Below are positions 3,401 through 58,272 of a stretch of 64,000 nt of DNA, piece after piece. The stretch covers positions 1,240,001 through 1,304,000 of the forward strand of contig OY253670.1 of NCBI GenBank assembly GCA_958009085.1, given 5' to 3'. Each line of letters begins with the position of its first letter. Position 1 is the first letter of the stretch. The stretch is from Protoeuglena noctilucae. Its lineage: Eukaryota; Chlorophyta; Pedinophyceae; Marsupiomonadales; Marsupiomonadaceae. The notes below the pieces were generated by a model, which worked only from the letters and a program-made list of their open reading frames with translations, searched no databases and had not been told where the DNA came from. Made by a program: the position numbers and the translations under genes.

Positions 3401-6400
3401 AGGCGGCGGAGGAGGACGGGGTGGGGGCCGCGATGGGCGACGAGGTGGAGAGCGCGGTCGAGGAGCAGGTCTTCCTGGCGGAGCAGTCCAGGTGGGCGTT
3501 CATGTGAATTGGCAGTTCTAGCAATACTGCGTTAGTAGTACTCAAGAAGTGGTAGTATCGGTCGCAGTGGTGGATGAACTGGGGCAGTGGGGTGGGTGGT
3601 GGTGTAGTGGTTGGTGGTCTACGGCCACCCGATGCATGCCGCCTGCAACTGAAAGGTCTTTTGTATCTCCTTCGTGTCTCGCAGGCTGGGGATGTGCATG
3701 GAGGACTTGAACCGGCAGCTGCGGGCCAAGGAGGAGCAGGTCCGCCAGATGAGTCAGGTGTCGGTGGTCAAGGCGGTGTACGAGAAGAAACTGGCCGAGG
3801 TGAGAGAGGAGTGGGGATGATGAGGGTGATGAGAGGAGAGGAGTGAAGGGATGAGAGGGGCTGGCAGAGGTGAGAGAGGGGTGGGGGTGATGAGAGGAGA
3901 GGAATGGGGTGATAGTGAGAAGCTGGCTGACACTGCGATTGGGGTTGCTGGCTCAGTGCGTGGGTGGTGACTGTAGCTGTGGCTGTGGCTGCGATGTCAG
4001 GAGAATGGAGTAAGTCATACCGTTCCACGCATCTCTCGCCCCCGCAGCTGGAGGACGAGCGTGGGCAGCTGGAGGACGAGCGGTCGCGGCTGAGCCAGGC
4101 GATGCGGGACCTGAAGAAGACGGGGGCGGTGAACGCGACAGAGAGAGAGGCCAAGCACAGGTGCGGGGGGGGGGGGGGAGGGGGGGGGGTTACTGCGGGG
4201 GGGAAAGGGCCTAATGCATTGCGGCTGTGGCTGTGTTGTATCTGAAACAAGCACAGAGGCGCACACCTTCCTGTGATGGGCGTCCGCACCCGCCCTATGC
4301 GAGCGTGGCGACCGTGACGCCGGCGCTCCTCGCCTCGCAGGCAGCGCTTGGCTGAACTGGAGGGGCGCCTGCGGGAGCTGGAGAGGGAGCGCGCGCGGCT
4401 CCGGGACCTGGAGCGGACCAAGGCACGCGCCGAGGAGGCGTGCAAGCGACTGGAGGAGGAGATCCGAGGGCTGAAGCAGCACAAGTGAGTGGGACAGTCC
4501 AGGGGTGAAGCGGCACTAGTGAGTGGGACAGTCGAGGGGGCGTTGGTGCAGCTGGTTTGAAACGTGGCATGTGGCACGTGGCACGCAGGGTGCAGCTGTC
4601 GCGTCAGATGGAGGCGGCTGCGAAGGAGTTCCAGGAGTTCAAGCGGACGAAGGAGAAGGAGATGATGCAGCTGAGGTGAGAGAGAGTGCAAACGGAACGA
4701 GATGAGGGGGGAGCGACGCGCCCCCTGGTTGTGTAGAGGGCCAGTTTGTTGGGCGCGGGCACGTGGCGACGGAGTGCGACCCCGCCTTGCGCCCTTCCTG
4801 GTTGTCGCAGGCGCGCGGGGCAGCGTGGCCAGCTGCAGGTGGAGCGCATGCGGGCGCTCCATGAGAAGCAACAGCAGGTTCTGCGGCGGAAGACGGAGGT
4901 GAGGGGCGCGCTTCTTACTCCCTATCGCACCGGGGGTGTTAAGCCACCACACATACAGCAGCACTGCAGTGCCACCACCTGTGGGTGCCATGGACCCCAC
5001 ATGACTTGCCAGGGATTCTATAAGACAATTTAAGGACCCCACATGACGTGAGCCACCCCGTGCCTGGTACCCAGGAGGCCGACGCGGCCCGGCGTCGCCT
5101 CAAGGAGCTCACGATGCGCCAGGCGGCGGTACAGGCCTCCCGGCCCCAGAGCGCCAGCAGCAAGGCGTCCGACGCGCCCGAGTGCCAACCCCACGGCATG
5201 GCCCCGCTGCTCAGGTGACGCTCGCAGTTAGATGCGGGTGCGGCAGGGCTGTTCGCAGGGCTGTTCACAGGACTGCTGGGTGATGAGGGTCCGTGCCATG
5301 AGATGACATGGCAACGGGGCTCTGTGGCGTGCAGGGACGAGCGCAGCCGGGAGGAGTGGGTGGAGGGCGAGATGGCGGTGGTGCTGCGGGGGCGGGAGAT
5401 CGAGAGGGTGCTGAGCGGGGAGACGGCGCAAAGGGCGGCCCTGGCCCAGGCCCTCCAGGCCAAGCGGCAGGCGAGACAGCAGCACAGCTGCACTAACACG
5501 AGGGTTCAGGCGGTCGTGAGACTGACCCCGTCCAGCTCAGCCACAGCGGTACCTGGGGCAGCTGTAAGTCTGATCTCAGCCGTTCCTGACTCTTTCACAG
5601 GAGCTGCGGCAGCTGGGGCAGTCCCCGGAGGCAGAGGCGGTGCGTGGCGCAGTGGCGTCGATGGAGGCCCGCATCGCCCAGCACACGGCCGACATCCGGG
5701 ACCTGCAGGAGCAGCTGGGACAGGCGAGATGGGGCGCAATGCCGCCCAGTGACTGGCATCACCACGCTCCTTACCCCACACCCCACGAATCGCGATGTGG
5801 CATGCCGTGTGCCCGCTACCCCACCCTCACCCCCTCCCTGCCCAACCTTGCTTGTGCCCGTCTGTTCCCAGGCCCGCGTGGAGCGTGGTGATGAGAAGAG
5901 CGTGGCCGCTTCGGACGTGCGCCGGTGGTCGGGCATCCGCAACACGATCGAGGGCCGCACGATGCTGCGGACGCTCTTCCGCGTGGCGGTGCGGGAGAGG
6001 GAGGCGAGGGCGGAGACGGAGGAGGCGTTAGTCGAGGTGAGGGAGCGAGGCGGGGGTGGGGAGACTGGTGGGGGCAGTCGTGGTGGTGAGGGATTGGTAA
6101 CGTGGTGCTTGGGTAACCAAGGTGGTGATGGTGCTAAGGACTCTCCTCTGGTGGGGTGGTGACATCTATCTTCGACCCTTGGCTGTTATACATTAATACG
6201 TGTCTGTGCCCACGCACGTGCAGGCTAAGGAGAGGGCCGAGCTGCTGACAATCGAGGTGGTGGCGCTGAAGAGGGAGCTGGCCGAGGCGCTGAGGCAGAA
6301 GGCGGCCGCGGAGGTGACGACCCGCGAAGCCGCATGGATTGCCCAGCTTTCCATCGGCACCTGCACCCACACGCTTCCGTGCCCACCTGTACCCGCACGC

Positions 6401-7829
6401 TCCCCGTCTGCTCGCCTGCCCACCCGCACCCACCCTTTCTCCGTCCCCAGGCGGCGTCCCACGCGGCCCTCGAGATGGCAAAGAAGGTCGCCACGCCGTC
6501 CAAGACCAGGCCCCTCCAGGACGCCACCAACGCCGAGGGTCCCGGTGCCGCGGCGCGTTCCGGGCCTGGGCCCATGCCCCCCCGGTCGCCGCTCTCCGAG
6601 GCCCTGGCGGGGGGACTGGCGCGGGCGACGGCCAACGGCGTCTGGCAGAGGTGCGGCGGGCAGCGTTGCCGTGGCAGGGCCCTGCACCTCTCGCTGTTGG
6701 GCCGTGCCGGATGCATGGGCGATGNNNNNNNNNNNNNNNNNNNNNNNNNNNNNNNNNNNNNNNNNNNNNNNNNNNNNNNNNNNNNNNNNNNNNNNNNNNN
6801 NNNNNNNNNNNNNNNNNNNNNNNNNNNNNNNNNNNNNNNNNNNNNNNNNNNNNNNNNNNNNNNNNNNNNNNNNNNNNNNNNNNNNNNNNNNNNNNNNNNN
6901 NNNNNNNNNNNNNNNNNNNNNNNNCTTCCTCGCCACCTGCAGTCCGGCGGCATCTCCGGCCAGCAGACGCCCCACCTGCGCCCTAACCACCCGCGGGCGG
7001 ACCCCGCGCGCTGGGCGGACGCCGTGGCGGACCTGCCGCCCGCGCCGGTCGCCGACGCCCAGCAAGACGTGGAGATGATGGACTGCGACGCGTCGCCCCT
7101 GCCCGCCCGGCCCCAGGGTCCGCCCCCCGGCGCCCGGCGCTACGCCAGCGGAGCGTCGGACCTGCCCAGCGCATCGGAGGGCGCCACGGGCGGGTCGGCG
7201 GGCGTCGCGTGCGCCTCCCCCGACTCCGAGGGTCCCTCCTCCGCGTCGACAGGCGCCTCGTCCCGAACCCAGGTGCAGCACTCGGCACCAGTGCTCCTCG
7301 CCCTCCCCACGCCGCCTGACTGGCCCGGCCCTGGCACCCCTTCGCCGCTGACATCTCTCGTCTTCACTGCCCGCAGCACCTGCTGCAGCGCGCCCAGGCG
7401 TCACGGGAGCGCGCGGAGGCGTTGCTGACACGCGCCCTGTCCGGGTCAACTTCCCAGGGATCCCGGGCCTCTGCCCCTGGCGCCACCCCCGACGCCGCTC
7501 AGGGATCGCCCTCGGGGGCCGAGAGCGGCCTGGCAGTCGCGGGCAGCTCCGCCGTCGCGCACCCGCGGGTGGTGAGTGCTTTATACTGCAACCCAGTCAC
7601 CGCATCCTGTGCATGGCAAGGCAGCAGGGGGCGACATGCAACGCGCGACCCCTTCCCTGCCCCGCAGTCTCCCCGCCGCAGCCCCCTCAGCCCCCTCTCC
7701 CCCAACTCGGTCCACAACTCCCCCAACGTCGGACCCCGCGCCAAGTCCGGCGCCGCCGACGCGACGGCCGAGCGAGTGGCGGAGCTCGCGGGCAAGCACC
7801 AGTTCACGTTCGCGCCCCCGCCGCAGTGA
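435..7829 (+). CDS. Kinesin-4 family motor protein (multi-exon, interrupted by an assembly gap)
   Basis: ATP-driven microtubule motor. The motor domain is split over the first exons (435-623, 862-1010, 1137-1244, 1432-1864, 2065-2426). The P-loop GQTGSGKT is rebuilt across the intron at 1011-1136. Switch I reads NKRSSRSH near 1660, switch II reads LVDLAGSER near 2070, and the motor ends in [15 protein letters not shown]. The opening VAVHVRPLI and the closing motif are typical of kinesin-4 (KIF4/FRA1), with roles in spindle, cell wall or flagellar microtubules. Downstream exons (2549 to about 6650) are long acidic and basic coiled coil, then a Pro/Ser/Ala-rich tail ends at 7829. The donor at 2427 is GC. 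The ATG at 435 is chosen because it is the nearest in frame; an upstream in-frame ATG at 186 is possible. A 200-N gap removes part of the tail. Confidence 0.9.
3791..3915 (+). repeat. Imperfect tandem duplication, 70-base period, copying an exon end and its donor
   Basis: The exon end CTGGCCGAG|GTGAGAGAGG at 3791 is repeated as CTGGCAGAG|GTGAGAGAGG at 3861, followed in both copies by a GA/GT-rich stretch. Both copies hold a usable 5' splice site. Confidence 0.85.
4048..4089 (+). repeat. 21-base coding duplication (one coiled-coil heptad)
   Basis: Two copies of a 21-base unit at 4048 and 4069 encode LEDERGQ and LEDERSR, one heptad each, at the start of a kinesin coiled-coil exon. Confidence 0.85.
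4472..4538 (+). repeat. Tandem duplication, 34-base period, copying an exon end and its donor
   Basis: TGAAGCAGCACAA|GTGAGTG at 4472 recurs as TGAAGCGGCACTA|GTGAGTG at 4506. About 31 of 34 bases match. Both copies carry the consensus donor GTGAGT. Confidence 0.9.
6725..6924. other. Assembly gap of 200 N
   Basis: Exactly 200 undetermined bases lie inside the kinesin tail region. The round length suggests a scaffold gap of nominal size, so the true length of this part of the gene is unknown. Confidence 0.99.
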
Positions 7830-50629: not shown

Positions 50630-53600
50630 ATGGAGGGACCTTTGCGCGTCATTGGTCCAGAAGACCTCGAGATAGGCGAGCTCCTGGGCTCAGGGTCACA
50701 AGGGAGTGTGTTCCGGGCAACCTGGCTGTCGTGCAAGCTCGCGGTCGCCGTGAAGCGTTTCGACGATGACTCTGGTCTCGATGGGCTGCTGGGGACCGGG
50801 AGGGAGGAAGTGGACAAGATGCGGAGGGTGGCGCAAGACAGCGCCCTCGTCGTACGGTGAGCAGGGAGCACGTCCGGCATTGCTAAGCTAGGCTTGCGGT
50901 GCCTTCGTAACCCTTCTCGTCACCGCGTTGCGCATGCAGCGTGTACGGCGTCGCCAGAGTCGACGGCCGCCTGCACATCGTGATGCAGCTGTGCGAGGGG
51001 TCCATGGCCCAGCGCCTGGCGGACTTGGGGCAGGGCCTGCCGAAGGAGGAGTTCGTGGACGTGGCCATGCGCGTGGTGGAGGGCCTGCGGGACCTGCACC
51101 GATGCGACATCCTCCACTGCGACCTGAAGCCGGAGAACATTTTGCTCGACCGAGATGGCCAGGCATTGCTGGCGGACTTCGGCCTGGCCAAGATCATGGG
51201 CCAGCGGGGGGCCGAGGCGAGTGCGCTGTTCTGACAGGGCGGATGCGCTGTCCCTGCCGACCCGTGCCGCGACTGTCGGGCCCCGCTTGTCGTGCACGCA
51301 GGGAGGTGCGGTGCGTCGGTACTTCCAGGCGCACCCCAACTACGCTGCTCCGGAGATGTGGGACGGTCTCGGGCGCATCTCTCGCGCCACGGATGTTTAC
51401 TGCGCCGCCGCCACGCTGTGCCACATTGCGTCCGGCAGGATGCCCTACGAGGGCCTCAACGTCCAGCAGATACAGCAGCACCAGCGCCTGGGCAGGTCAC
51501 CCCCGGTCCCCAACTGCGTGCCGGAGCCCCTGCGCGGCAAGCTGGCGCAGGCGCTGCGGTGCAGCCAGGAGGACCGAGTGTCGCTGGACGACCTGGTCGG
51601 GGCCGCCAAGGAGGCCAAGTGAGTAACGGTCGTGCCTGCGTGTCTGTCTGGCCAGTGTCAGTGACATCAGCTGTGGCATGTCTGACCCCCGCAGGGACAT
51701 CGTGCGGGGCCTGAAGCTGGTGGACTGCTTGGTCTGCCAGAGCAGCGTCCAGGAGGCGACCACGGCCATCTGCAGCGCGGGCAGGCACCGCCTCTGCGGG
51801 GCGTGCCTGGGGCGCGCCATCGAGCAAGCCGACGCGAAGCTGGACGAGAGCGGCCGCGTCGTCTGCGCCATGGGGTGCGCGCCGGACGAGAGCGTGTTCC
51901 GACGGGAGGACGTCATGACGAAGGCCCCCGTGGAGGCGCGCGTCACGTACCTGGACAAGGCCGGCCGGGAGCACGGCCGCCGGGCCATGGCGCAGCAGGA
52001 GGCAGAGCTGCGGCGTTTACAGGATGACCTCGACAGGCTTGTGATGGACGGGCAGGGCGGGGGCGCCCAGGCGGTGGCCACGCACACCCGGCTCATCGAG
52101 GATTTGCTTTGCGCATTCCGCTGCCCCGGGTGCCGGATCGTCTCTCAGGTCGAGGACTTTACCGAGTGCCTGGCCGTGTCGTGCGGGAGCTGCCGCGCGC
52201 ACTACTGCGCGTGGTGCCTGGAGGACTGCCAGTCCTGGGAAGGGGCGCATATGCACGTGCCAAGTGAGCATCCGAGCCTGGACTCCTACCCTTACCACCG
52301 ATCGCACGCGTCCCTGACACAGTAACCCATGCCCGCGACCACCTAACGCACACATCCCCGACACAGTAACCCCCGCCTCTTCCTTTGCGCAGGATGCCCA
52401 AAGAACCCCCGACCTGGGAGGGTGTTTGGCGAGAAGGAGGAGTTCGATGGGTACTGGCGCGCGATCAAGCGCGAGAGGGTGGTCCAGCACCTGATGGAGA
52501 TACGGCCCGACCTGCGGGAGCGCGTCTGGCGAGGCGTGTTGCCCACCATCGCCGACCTGGGCATCCAGTGGCAAGACGTGGCGCCACCCGCGAGGGATCC
52601 TGAGCCCCCGGCCGCGCCCATCGCTGACGACGACGGCCCTCCGGACGCCGTGCCGCCCGCAGCGCCCGCAGCGCCTGCAGCGCCCCCGGCTGTGCCCGGC
52701 TGGGAGGCTGTCGTTGCCAGGGCGGCTGCCAGAGGTGGCGAGGTGGACCTGCAGGGGGCCACGGTGACACTGCGGGCGGCCCTTTCGGTGAAGGGAGTGC
52801 GCCTGGTGGTCCGCAACGGGCAGATCAAGGCGGAGGGTGCCGCGGTGGGTGGGGTGTACGTGGTGCAGGCGCTGGCCGGAGGGGTGGTGGAGCTACGGGA
52901 TCTTCGGCTGAGGGGCGGGGTGCTGTGCGCCGAGGGTGGGAGGGTGGCAATAGCGGCGTGCATGGTAGAGGACTCGCCGAGGTGTGGCGTGCGTGTCACG
53001 GGTCGGGGCAGCGAGGCGACGGTGGACGCGGGTGTCGTCACCGGTGCCGCTGCGGACGGCGTCGAGGTTTCCCACGGGGCCCACGTGCAGCTCAATGGGA
53101 CACAGGTGGTGGAGGCCCGGCGATGCGGGGTCCTTTGCGTCGGGGAGGGCAGCAAGGCGGTGCTTGAGAACTGCCGCGTGGAGTTGGCCATGAAGGGCGA
53201 CGGCGTGGCGTGCTCCCTCGGCGGGTGCGCGGAGCTGCGGGACACGCACGTGGACAAGTGCATGGGATGCGGGGTGCACGTGGCCGGGCCCGGGAGCAGG
53301 GTGACGATGGAGCGGGGGAGCGTCGCGGGGTCCAAGGACTGGCACGGCGTGTGCTGCGAGCTCGCTGGCAGCGCCCAGCTCACCGACGTCGCCGTTACCG
53401 GGTGCCGCGGGGCCGGTGTCGCTATTGTGGGTCCCTCCGGGGCCCTACCCCAGGGCCGCGCCGTGGCTCCCACTCTGAGCGGCCCCCGTCGCTTTCTGAC
53501 CGAGGACAGCGCTGCGGAGCCCACGGCGCAGGCCTACCAGCAGCTGCGCGACCAGCTGAGGGCCAGCGAAGTGCCTCTCGTGACGGTCCAGGGCGGGGCG

Positions 53601-55757
53601 ATTGAGGGCCACGCGGGGAGCGGGGTGCGGGTGGAGATGAGCGGCCGGGCCAAAGTCGAGGCCCTGGAGATCAGGGGGTGTGCGGAGGCGGGGGCGACGT
53701 GCACGTCGGGGGGCGTCCTGGAGATGACTGGGGTGCAAGTCCATGGGGTGCTGCCACCCGAGGGAGGAGAGGGGCAGGGAGACGGGCTGGTGTGCGACGG
53801 GGGCGTCGTGAGGTTCCGTGGGGTCCCCGAGCAGAGGAGTTTGGTGGCTGGGGTGCAGAGGGGCGTGCTGTGTCAGCGGGGCGGGCGGGTGAAGTTGGCT
53901 CACTTTCGCATCGACCAGTGCGCTTCGCATGGGGTGCAGTGCCAGGGCTCCCAGAGCGCCGTGAAGGCGGAAGACGGGGCTGTACAGCACATCGGGGGTC
54001 ACGAGGGCACTGGCATCTCCGCAGAGGGCGGGGGGCAGGTGCACGCCGTTCGGGTCGAGATCTCCAGCATCGCGGCGCATGGCGCGAGGTGCTCCGCTAA
54101 GGGTGTTCTGACACTCGAGGACGTGATGGTGCAAGACGTCCTGGGTGGCACTGGCGTTCAGTGTGACCGCCAGGGCAAGGCGACCTTGCGACGGTGCACT
54201 GTGCGAGGGTGCGATCAGTTTGGGGTGCTGTGCGTGGGCAAGTCGAGCAAGGCGGTCGTCCACAGCGGGTCCATTGGCGACGTCCAGACGGGCGTTGGCT
54301 GCCAGGAGGGTGGCTGTGCGGAGATGCACGTCCCGGCCATTGAGGGGTGCAGGGAGCAAGGACTGCGCTGCCACGGCCCAGGCAGCGCCGTCGCTGTCAA
54401 AGGGGGCTCCGTCAGAGATACCGGGGGCGGTGTCATGGCTGGCGCAGGGGTTGATGGGGGGTGTGGCGTGCGCTGCGAGGCTGGTGGGGAGGCTAAGCTG
54501 GAGCGCATGACTGTGGAGCGGTCGCGGGGACCAGGCGTGGCGTCGACGGGCAGGGGCAGCCGAGTGACGCTGTCGGGAGCGCAGGTGCAGGGGTCGGGCC
54601 AGTGCGGCCTGCTCTGCGCCGACGGTGCGGTGATAGCCGCAGCTGGCACGGCCATCTCGCAAAGCGCCCGGTGCGGCGTCAGCTGCGGTGGGGAGGGCAG
54701 TGCGGTGGAGTTGCAGTCGGGGTGCCTTGTCAAGGCGTCGGGGTGGCACGGTGTGGAGTGCGTGGGCGGGGCCCGACTGGAGGTGGCGGCCACGCAGATT
54801 GAGGGTGCGCAGCAGTGCGGGGTGTTCTGCCAGGGCGCGGGCAGTCGCTTTAAGATGGAAGGCGGGGCCATCACGGGCGTGGCGGAGCTGCACGCGGTGT
54901 GGGTGCAGGGCGGCGGCATGGTGAGAATAAAGGAGGTGACCGTCAGTCGCTTTGCCCACCAAGGGGTGGCATGCTCTGGCGCAAAAAGTGAGGCGTACGT
55001 CGTGGGCGGCAGCATCGACGGCTCGGAGAGGGGTCAGTATGGGGTCGTTGGCACCGGTGGTGGCCTTGTGGTGGTGAAAAGGACACGGGTAGTGGGGTGT
55101 GCGGAGGGCGGGATCCTCTGCGAGCGTGCTGGGACCCGGGGGAGGGTGCGGGAGGTGGTGGTGTCAGGTACCCAGAAGCTCTACGGGGTGTGTTGCCAGG
55201 AAGTGGCAGAGATGGAGGTTGATAAAACGGAGGTCAGGGGGTGTGTGGAAGGCAGCGGGCTCGCGTGTTTCACGGGCGCCACGCTGGTCGTTCATCGCAG
55301 CAACGTCGCCGACTGCCGAGCCGGGAACGGCTTGTGCTGCACGACCGGCGCCAGCGCGACCCTCACCGAGTGTCGCATCTGGCGATGTGGCCAGTCGGGG
55401 GTCGTGTGCTGCGGGGAGGGGAGCCGCGTGGCTGTTTGCAGTGGCGTGGTGGAGGAATGCGGCCAGCACGGCTTGGCGTGCTCGGAGGCGGGTGCGATTG
55501 AGGCGCTGGGCACGCAGGTGAAGGGGTGCGGCGGCCGGGGCCTGTCCACCGACACTCCCAAATCTCTGCGGCACAAGGGCGTGTGTGTTACGAGTTGCAG
55601 TGGTCAGGAGGACATGGGGCAGCCGCTGAGCCCCGCTGCTGCGCTGCTCGTCGCTCTCGTTGCTCTGGCGGTCAGGCTGGCATGCGGGGCGGCCCGCGTT
55701 ACGGCTGTGGCCGATGCCGAGGGCAGCGGATGGACGTGGCTGCCGCCGAATGCCTAG
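50630..55757 (+). CDS. Protein kinase - RING/IBR-like zinc module - parallel beta-helix - TM fusion
   Basis: Five exons (50630-50856, 50940-51216, 51302-51618, 51695-52263, 52393-55757) sum to 4755 bases, 1584 residues, every phase matching. Residues 1-270: Ser/Thr kinase with GSGSQGSVF (loop), VAVKRF (Lys), [11 protein letters not shown] (catalytic Asp), DFGLA and YAAPE, so all active residues are present. Residues 280-480: cysteine-rich module with [21 protein letters not shown], then [16 protein letters not shown] and HMHVPRCPKN, like RING/IBR ubiquitin ligases. Residues 590-1550: many coils of about 22-25 residues ([19 protein letters not shown] type), as in right-handed parallel beta-helices. 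One hydrophobic segment near the end ([18 protein letters not shown]) could anchor it. The second intron has a GC donor (GAG|GCGAGT at 51217). Substrate and location are unknown. Confidence 0.9.
52294..52372 (+). repeat. 44-base tandem duplication in an intron
   Basis: ACCACCGATCGCACGCG.. at 52294 recurs as ACCACCTAACGCACACA.. at 52338. Both copies end in GACACAGTAACCC. It lies just upstream of the acceptor at 52392. Confidence 0.8.
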
Positions 55758-55818: not shown

Positions 55819-58272
55819 TCAGATCGCCATGGTCAGCGCCGCCCGCCCCACTGCCTCCCTGAGCTGCGCCAGCCCCGAGGGCGAGTGGACGTCCACAGCC
55901 TCTCCATCTGCCGCGCAAATGATAACCACCCCACGAGATCCCTCAGCCCCTCGCCAGCTCTCCGCCGCTCCGCCGTCGCCTTCCTGACCACCGCGCATCT
56001 CCCACACATCCAGGTCCCGCTCCCATGCCCCCACACCCTCCTCAATTCCACTAACCGGCCCTCTTATCTCTCCCTCTCCTCCTTGCAGAGTCCCCCTGTC
56101 CCTCTCCTCGTCACCCACCGCAGCCCTGCCAGCGACACCCAACTTCGCATGTCCTCCTAACGCCTCCCCTTCCCTGTCACCCGCGACTTGCGCACCCACC
56201 CCGGCCGCCATCCCAGTCAGGTCGGGCACGCGACCTGACAGAGAGAAGGGGTCCGGGAGACATCCCACGCTGCACGGCAGCCACGACTCGGCACGCCGGA
56301 ACTTGCGCCGCGACCCGCCAGGCCCCTCTGCCTCCCCGACAGCCCCGCGCTTCCCAGCCGCGGCCCTCAGCTGCTCCACGGCGGCTCTGGCCCCGCCCAG
56401 CGCTCCCTCCAGCGCCGCAAGACGCTCGGCCTCCGCGCTGGCCCGGGGCCTCGGCTGGGATGCGGCACGAGCCGCCTGTCCCGCCATGGCCAGCAGCCGC
56501 GCTAGGGTCGGACCGGTCCCCCTGGCCCCGCTCCCTCGCCCGGTCAGGTGCCCCGCGATCGCCTGCACCAGCTGCGCCAGGGCCTCCTCCGCCTCCTCGC
56601 GACTGGCGCCGTCCATGGCCGCCTCGCCGGCACGGGAAGCGTGTGACGAAGGCTCACGCGCCGTCGCCATGCACTCCACCAGGACGGCCTCCAGTCGAGA
56701 CTCCACCTCCTGCGTTTGAAGGAAGAGGTGTGAAGATAGTACTGTGAAAGCACCCTCGTCTACTTCACCAGTTGTCCCACAGGGTTGCGCAGGATCCCAG
56801 CTGGCCATCTCGCGCCTCACCGCGGCAGACACGCCTCCCGCACCGTCGCTCCCCGCCGCGAGCATCTCCAGCCCCACTTGCCCCCACTCCACCAGCTCCC
56901 AACACGCGCCGCCGCCCTCCTGCCCGTCCGCCTCGCCATCGGCCCCGCACGTCGCACCCCGGACCCCCGCGCACGCCAGCCGGGAGGCGCGGCACACGAG
57001 GAGGAGCGGGAGGTGAGGGAACACCCTGGCAAGCGCGGTGACCGTCGCCCGCCACGCCTCCCTCTCGACCCCGCCCCCCCGGGGCGGCCGCAACGCGCCC
57101 CCGCCCACCAGCGCCGGGGCCAGCTCCGCCTCCGCCGCGTGCGCGGCCACGAGGGACCGCAGCGTCCCCATCGCCGCCTCCCGCCGCCGCGCCCGCTCCT
57201 TTTTGGACGACCCGGGCGTCGCTGCCGAGGGCCCCGCGTGGGGCGTGGCGTCCGGGTCGCCCTCCTCCTCCGTCTCAGAGCCTGCAGGTGGCGGTGTAGG
57301 AATATGAGCTTTACCAAAGTCAGCCGTGGGGTCTGCGGAGCGTGTCAGCTGTTCGCCCGGCTGCAGAGCGCACCGAGGGTCTCCAGAACAGGCGTGGTCG
57401 GGGCCTGCCGGGCGCGTGCGAGTCCCTCCACGCGCTCCGCGTGGTACGCCGCGATGGCCGCTCGCACGCGCTCCCGGCTCTTGCGGAGGTACGACTCCTG
57501 CAGCTCCCAGTAACTCTCCCGCAGCCACGCCAGCGCCTGGCGGGACGCCAGCCTGCGTGCGCCGGAAAAGGCGCAGGGTGAGTGCCCTCCATCGATGCCA
57601 TGCATAAGCAAAAGCTGGGGACTGCCAGGAGCGCTCGCCTGAGGACGGGCAGGGCCGGCAGCTGCTGGTGCGTGGCCGCATGGCGAATCTCCACGAGAAG
57701 CCTCGGCAGCCCCGCCTTCTGCGCGAGCGAGTCGACGGCTGCAGCGACCTTGCCCGACTGCTGCGAGTCCGAGATGCCGTTGACGAGCCTGCGCAGTGGA
57801 ACGGACGACAGGGCTGCGGCATCAACACTCGGCACGCAGCGTCGCAGCCCGGGCCCCGAGCGCAGCGCCCCAGCCGGTACCTGATGAGCGCCATGGAGTA
57901 CTGCATGCGCAGGAGCGTGTCTGAGACCCCAGCGTCGGCGGGGGCCCTCCCCGCGTCCAGCAAATGAGCCTCCGTGAGGGCCGCCGTGGCGTCCGCCGCT
58001 AGCGGCACGCGGCCGCGGACGCGCCAGCATTCGACGAGCCCCACGCCTGCACGATTATCGTCCGCGTCGTCTGAGAAGAGCAGCCGCCGGCATCGCCGCC
58101 ACTGCGCGCGGGGCGGGAGTCCGACGTGGAGGGCGCGGGCAGCGAGGCCCGCCGCCGCGCATGGCGTTAAGAAAGCGCAGTGCATCACAACATCGGCGTT
58201 GATTTGGTTCTAGCGAGGCTATCCTCCACGCACCTCCTCCCAGGAGAGCCACGGGACAACGCGGCCCACCAT
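55819..58272 (-). CDS. LAS1-like pre-rRNA processing nuclease
   Basis: HEPN-domain endonuclease that cuts ITS2 in 27S pre-rRNA with Grc3. Exon 1 (58272-58234) encodes MVGRVVPWLSWEE and joins in phase to WRRCRRLLFSDDADD. MQYSMALIRLVNGISDSQQS follows. The catalytic HEPN motif is LLVEIRHAATHQQLPAL (R-x4-H). Next comes LASRQALAWLRESYWELQES. The C-terminal half is Ala/Glu/Gly-rich and includes RRAESWLPCSVGCLPD, similar to the LAS1 C-terminal WxxCxxG motif. The intron after LPVLR has a GC donor (AG|GCGAGC at 57638). The gene converges with the kinase-beta-helix gene, only 61 bases away. Confidence 0.9.

Follow-up and report, generated by a model that had tools for sequence, protein, structure and literature searches.

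We analysed a window of 64,000 nucleotides from the green alga Protoeuglena noctilucae (contig OY253670.1, positions 1,240,001 to 1,304,000) and found that the gene at window positions 50630-55757 on the + strand encodes, in one chain, a protein kinase domain, a Cys/His zinc module resembling parts of RBR ubiquitin ligases, a long right-handed beta-helix and a C-terminal hydrophobic segment. The order of kinase, zinc module and beta-helix is found again in paralogs elsewhere in this genome and, judging from these sequences, marks a real but uncharacterised protein family. Each of the parts is known; when we searched open-licence papers for this architecture or for close kin, none of the papers listed described the combination, such a family or its expansion. 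Our proposal, which we hold with about even confidence, is that the window protein is a kinase and an E3 ubiquitin ligase in one cytosolic chain, perhaps tail-anchored and facing the cytosol.

An earlier note on this DNA, made from the sequence alone, had described a five-exon gene in phase, and translation of the five exons reproduced it, giving 1584 residues and one stop. The introns are 83, 85, 76 and 129 bases long, and the GC content by codon position is 0.72/0.53/0.83. To place introns in paralogs we used a custom spliced aligner; single introns may be wrong, so that weight rests on recurrence. Intron 1 (50857..50939; GT-AG, phase 2, residue 75) has a position common to 17 of the 24 modelled paralogs. 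Intron 2 can be read as GC-AG (51217..51301, phase 0, residue 168) or as GT-AG (51221-51305, phase 1), with frame and length kept under both forms. Paralog introns favour the GC-AG form because its phase 0 matches the phase-0 introns found at residues 165-169 in 10/24 modelled paralogs (at 168-169 in seven of these; the remaining 14 are different). Several other kinase paralogs apparently use GC-AG introns as well, with GC donors placed in L028, L031 and L035. Intron 3 (51619..51694, residue 273, phase 2) falls at the boundary between kinase and zinc module, and half of the modelled paralogs (12/24) have a phase-2 intron there, at residues 272-274. Intron 4 (52264..52392; GT-AG, phase 1, 129 bases) lies inside the second unit of the zinc module.

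The kinase domain itself is certain. It occupies residues 1-273 (50630..51618; exons 50630-50856, 50940-51216 and 51302-51618) and is matched by the Pkinase family of Pfam at residues 14-266 (E=5.9e-36). The G-loop, K42, D137, the DFG motif (D155) and APE are all in place, so the Lys, the Asp of HxD and the DFG motif of an active kinase are present, in agreement with the intact catalytic residues that the earlier note had reported. At E<=1e-18 only two PDB sequences matched, labelled EGFR and B-raf; we presume from these matches that the domain belongs to a TK/TKL-like group.

Equally certain, on Pfam matches and periodicity, is the Cys-rich beta-helix at residues 565-1532 (52695..55598), whose coils of about 23-25 residues bear out the long beta-helix proposed earlier. 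Specifically, Beta_helix (PF13229) matched in six stretches at E=8.3e-41, with 139.7 bits against a curated cut-off of 25.9. A coil HMM built from 164 paralog units, and applied at a permissive threshold without a decoy control, gave 32 matches in the window helix, many of them weak or negative-scoring; of the 31 spacings between them, 17 were 23-25 residues and four were 46-47. The autocorrelation of Cys positions peaks at lags 48 and 23, and a loop of about 48 residues interrupts the helix at residues 810-857.

We then examined how far this order of parts recurs across the genome (26.3 Mb in 26 contigs; all match counts are lower bounds). The searches gave at least 112 beta-helix matches in 60 clusters, at least 146 kinase matches in 112 clusters and at least 15 zinc-module matches, which merged to 12 loci once three matches that were second pieces of loci already counted had been dropped. 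With the window included, a kinase lies no more than 1.5 kb upstream at all 12 zinc clusters, and a helix no more than 1.8 kb downstream at 8 of them. Among the 60 helix clusters, 19 have a same-strand kinase within 3 kb upstream (for one of these, on contig C14, the kinase match is weak, E=5.5e-4), compared with two clusters that have a kinase downstream, two with one on the opposite strand, and a random mean of 0.41 and maximum of 2 in 200 trials. In six of the eight full loci (L024, L025, L026, L028, L031 and L032) zinc module and helix share one uninterrupted frame; in the remaining two the junction contains an intron (the window gene) or a frame change (L029). At L029 the kinase C-lobe and the zinc module are also in one open frame, though the aligner places an intron inside it. 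The proposal of the earlier note that kinase, E3-like zinc module and beta-helix form one protein is thus backed by the recurrence of their order.

These data bear directly on the possibility that two adjacent genes, one for kinase and zinc module and one for the beta-helix, have been wrongly joined. If intron 4 is left unspliced, the frame does stop at 52323-52325; splicing it, by contrast, restores both the last conserved Cys of the second zinc unit and an NP motif. A split is very unlikely because a single frame encodes both zinc module and helix in six paralogs and because the kinase introns recur, and we rejected it on the strength of those six paralogs. They likewise contradict the break into two genes near 52263-52393 that the earlier note had named as the result that would overturn its model.

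The zinc module consists of two units that are joined by a helical linker, and its Cys/His pattern is conserved across the paralogs. The first unit, RING1-like by paralog Cys/His conservation, by an AlphaFold model of the paralog L027 and by Foldseek, runs from Cys285 to Cys335 (51726..51878). The linker at residues 344-416 (51903..52121) corresponds to helices at 79-134 of the L027 model (mean pLDDT 86.1, pTM 0.69; predicted coordinates without metal), in which a helical linker and no IBR domain separates the two zinc units. The second unit, Rcat-like by the paralog alignment and by PF22191, runs from Cys417 to Cys465 (52122..52397) and is the one interrupted by intron 4. Behind the module, a helical adaptor at residues 479-526 (52437..52580), ending in WQDV, is kept as well. 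We aligned the second unit in 11 of 13 members, leaving out L034 and L053, for which the aligner gave no intact unit. Its typical order is C-x2-C ... C-(M/L)-(A/V)-(L/V)-x-C ... C ... C-x-W-C ... H-x-H-V-x2-C, with ten invariant columns that include the Cys at the catalytic position, i.e., Cys432 of the window protein (52167-52169), a candidate catalytic residue. The exceptions are few: L024 has Trp in place of Cys437, a presumed ligand, and one member lacks a His.

Which known fold this module resembles most is less straightforward, as the zinc part of the window protein, taken as a 227-residue piece, matched no Pfam family at E<=1. In RBR ligases the former RING2, now renamed Rcat, bears the catalytic Cys, and IBR shares its fold but lacks this Cys (PMC3940038). 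Two lines of evidence point towards such ligases. First, the top six Foldseek matches of the L027 model are all RBR ligases, namely RNF216 (E=0.0092), three chains of HOIL-1, 1wim (which we take to be RING1 of RNF144A; TMt 0.60) and parkin, and RBRs make up 15 of the 49 matches. Second, taken on its own, the second unit matched PF22191 at E<=1 in 4/11 members (0.0036, 0.01 for the window, 0.023 and 0.14) against 1/11 for PF01485 (0.46), and PF22191 matched none of 20 shuffled sequences in which C and H kept their positions. The Rcat domains of human ARIH1 and ARIH2 prefer the same family (about 1e-15 for PF22191 vs 3.4e-6 and 1.1e-7 for PF01485), and the IBR of ARIH1 prefers the other (1.3e-12 for PF01485 vs 0.065 for PF22191). 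Because members and ARIH Rcat domains share this preference, the second unit appears to lean towards Rcat (RING2) and not IBR, and the sequences and the model favour, over RING plus IBR, a zinc part made up of an RBR-type RING1 followed by a helical linker and then an Rcat-like finger. The earlier reading of RING plus IBR holds up insofar as the module is an E3-like Cys/His arrangement kept in paralogs, with RING1 first, and fails in the identity of the second unit; it was nonetheless close, since IBR and Rcat share one fold.

Several observations weigh against kinship with RBR ligases. Not one of the 49 Foldseek matches reached E<=0.001, and TM-scores by query length were 0.26 at most. Superposition is poor for RNF216 (12.7 A over 273 columns), and a fit of 3.5-4.7 A is limited to matches of about 90 columns, which probably are RING1, in a table that carries no ranges. 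Every PF22191 score lies under the curated cut-off and 7/11 members had no match. An hhalign comparison with ARIH1/ARIH2 Rcat scored 15.7, a weak value that was equalled by 2/60 full and 6/60 Cys-fixed column shuffles. The PDB profile search gave seven matches at E<=10 with no RBR among them; the CEP104 zinc fingers came first (E=0.00098), and a viral C2HC finger and TRAF3 (0.18) were also returned. An IBR search of the genome, in which six candidates were scored, gave four matches at two loci outside the family, and in single-member Pfam scans IBR appeared in 1/12 members at E=0.2 only. The Rcat of human ARIH1 and ARIH2 has the order C-P-K-C ... C-N-H-M-x-C ... C ... F-C-W-x-C-L, and the His that follows the catalytic Cys there (CNHM) is absent from the family, which has CLAV or CMAL instead. 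This His has a role in RBR ligases. Finally, in the L027 model the helix that precedes C190 contains H184 and H186, an arrangement like that of a C2HC finger.

An alternative that takes up several of these points is that an ordinary RING is followed by a TRAF/CEP104-like C2HC finger, making the protein a RING-only E3 or a zinc scaffold in which Cys432 is a zinc ligand and not catalytic. The CEP104 and TRAF3 profile matches fit this alternative, as does the model helix with two His ahead of the last Cys; in addition, the zinc part of the window protein matched TRAF6 (E=0.034), single-member Pfam scans gave RING_XB3-XBAT31 (0.018) and TRAF3_RING (0.034) in 1/12 members each, and TRAF3_RING matched the second unit in 2/11 members. 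The Foldseek ranking with RBR ligases first tells against it, as do PF22191, the Pfam family that more members match with their second unit than any other (4/11), and the invariance of Cys432 in the face of the Trp that replaces the neighbouring presumed ligand Cys437 in L024. We consider this alternative rather unlikely, although it is the strongest of the rivals. The profile and structure searches that the earlier note had suggested for this module therefore part ways, with RBR ligases first in Foldseek and missing from the PDB profile search. Because of the weak hhalign score, the lack of RBRs among PDB profiles, the C2HC-like helix, the missing His and the IBR matches outside the family, we call the module RBR-like, not an RBR, and its ligase activity is a prediction from sequence and model.

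The single hydrophobic segment noted earlier behind the helix was recovered at residues 1542-1564 (55626..55694), where hydropathy reaches a best 19-residue mean of 2.29, and may be a tail anchor. No N-terminal hydrophobic segment or signal peptide was found in the window protein (best mean 0.77, residues 1-60). Since the sole hydrophobic segment is C-terminal to the helix, kinase and helix would lie on one side of the membrane, most likely the cytosol. The earlier note had envisaged a membrane-anchored, ligand-binding beta-helix as a receptor or scaffold, and we considered a membrane receptor with the helix exposed outside the cell. The one hydrophobic segment speaks for such a receptor, yet there is no N-terminal signal and the segment's place behind the helix puts helix and kinase together; we rejected this topology and regard it as highly improbable. 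The disulfides suggested as stabilising the helix are also unlikely if, as we assume, the protein is cytosolic.

In a survey of tails across the family, 22 helix frames were compared (23 rows less that of L032, whose 400 aa are not a helix frame; L034, L037 and L043 were left out, and L024 and others had too few motif matches in their frames to be included). Three end in a hydrophobic tail, namely the window protein (2.29), L038 (1.89) and L025 (1.65), and the next value is 1.26. The tail of L025 is not distinctive, because some inner stretches of helix frames reach 1.6-1.9. Directly before the stop, 10 of the 22 frames (L040, L042, L044, L048 and others) have a motif like HSGCTVSGCGxG....C.

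How such a protein might work can be modelled on two known systems, with every step conditional on the analogy. One is KEEP ON GOING (KEG) of Arabidopsis, which has a RING, a kinase and long protein-protein interaction repeats in one chain (PMC5385374). The window protein is like KEG in joining RING-type and kinase parts to long repeats in one chain, and unlike it in being kinase-first, in the look of RING1 plus Rcat and in having beta-helix repeats where KEG has ankyrin and HERC2-like ones; a Pfam scan of the window protein found no ankyrin match at E<=1. The other is human FBXO11, an SCF substrate receptor in which the CASH (beta-helix) domains play an important part in recognising substrates (PMC8825234). 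FBXO11 shares with the window protein the character of an intracellular E3 component with a beta-helix (predicted in our case); unlike the window protein it carries an F-box together with a UBR finger and has neither a kinase domain nor its own RING, and the same scan gave no F-box match at E<=1. Following these models, the beta-helix would recognise a substrate or partner, RING1 would bind E2~ubiquitin, the ubiquitin would be handed to Cys432 and from there to the substrate, provided that the Rcat-like unit is indeed an Rcat, and the kinase might phosphorylate the ligase itself or the substrate and so license the ubiquitin step.

If this is true, a single polypeptide combines phosphorylation and ubiquitin transfer with a long solenoid that reads substrates, and the protein family may tag other proteins inside the cell. 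Kinase licensing of an RBR-like ligase in cis would then be directly testable, as would the ability of Rcat chemistry to proceed in the absence of an IBR domain. With RBR ligases (RNF216, HOIL-1, parkin, ARIH1/2) the family shares a predicted RING1-like fold, the Rcat-like Cys/His order and a Cys at the catalytic place; it differs from them in the long helical linker, the IBR that our searches did not find, the missing His after the candidate catalytic Cys and the scores below cut-off. PINK1 is a kinase that activates the RBR ligase parkin (PMC6276879). The two are separate proteins, whereas the kinase and the ligase-like part of the window protein belong to one chain. A bolder version of our proposal, which we think unlikely, is that an IBR-less transthiolating ligase and its kinase form a fused PINK1-parkin-like pair, with the helix as a diversified substrate reader, and that the family has expanded in this alga into a recognition repertoire of both active kinases and pseudokinases.

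The variation within the family can be read in yet another way, as a recognition repertoire in which helices vary and the kinase and ligase parts, often dead, serve as scaffold or decoy, like integrated-decoy immune receptors. This would agree with the loss of the catalytic Asp in 10 of the 24 modelled kinases (L025, L026, L029, L030, L035, L041, L042, L043, L053 and L054), with helix-bearing frames that span 343 to 1034 residues, with the 41 of 60 helix clusters for which no same-strand kinase match lies in the 3 kb upstream, and with a supported clade of seven (98/95) in the kinase tree that has no zinc-module match. The window kinase, however, retains K42, D137 and DFG, and we judge this reading quite improbable. 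The 41 clusters suggest that this alga also has many helix proteins with a different architecture.

In our tree, built from 26 kinase domains, seven of the 23 inner branches are well supported, and members with zinc module and helix are scattered over parts of it. Because of this spread, the tree suggests that the three-part form is old and that losses came later, with the deep forks unsupported. Some members without a zinc module still show, by eye, a piece resembling the helical adaptor ahead of the helix. Taken together with a working kinase and ligase in one chain, the family's expansion, its repeated loss of kinase residues and its zinc-less clade would offer a natural set of variants for telling apart what each part does.

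We also considered a viral or prokaryotic origin. The zinc module gave 29 pattern matches in a viral contig collection and 31 in a prokaryotic genome collection, none confirmed in either (each with one peptide pattern, so that distant kin could be missed); for the L032 helix, one scan of these collections gave no pattern match and the other 29 matches, none confirmed. As these narrow scans yielded no confirmed relative of the zinc module or the L032 helix, we rejected such an origin. The genome carries light-harvesting genes of the plant-type family, judging from best PDB matches.

Three minor observations concern single loci. At about 3400-4343 of L026 the helix frame breaks and the repeats resume in another frame, which may reflect a frameshift, an intron or an assembly error. 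Downstream of the paralog at L024, a frame at 5129-6865 looks ankyrin-like by eye. In the window, the downstream neighbour at 55822-58209 on the - strand has a Las1-like match (PF04031, E=2.3e-10), a ribosome-biogenesis family, and appears to be an ordinary neighbour.

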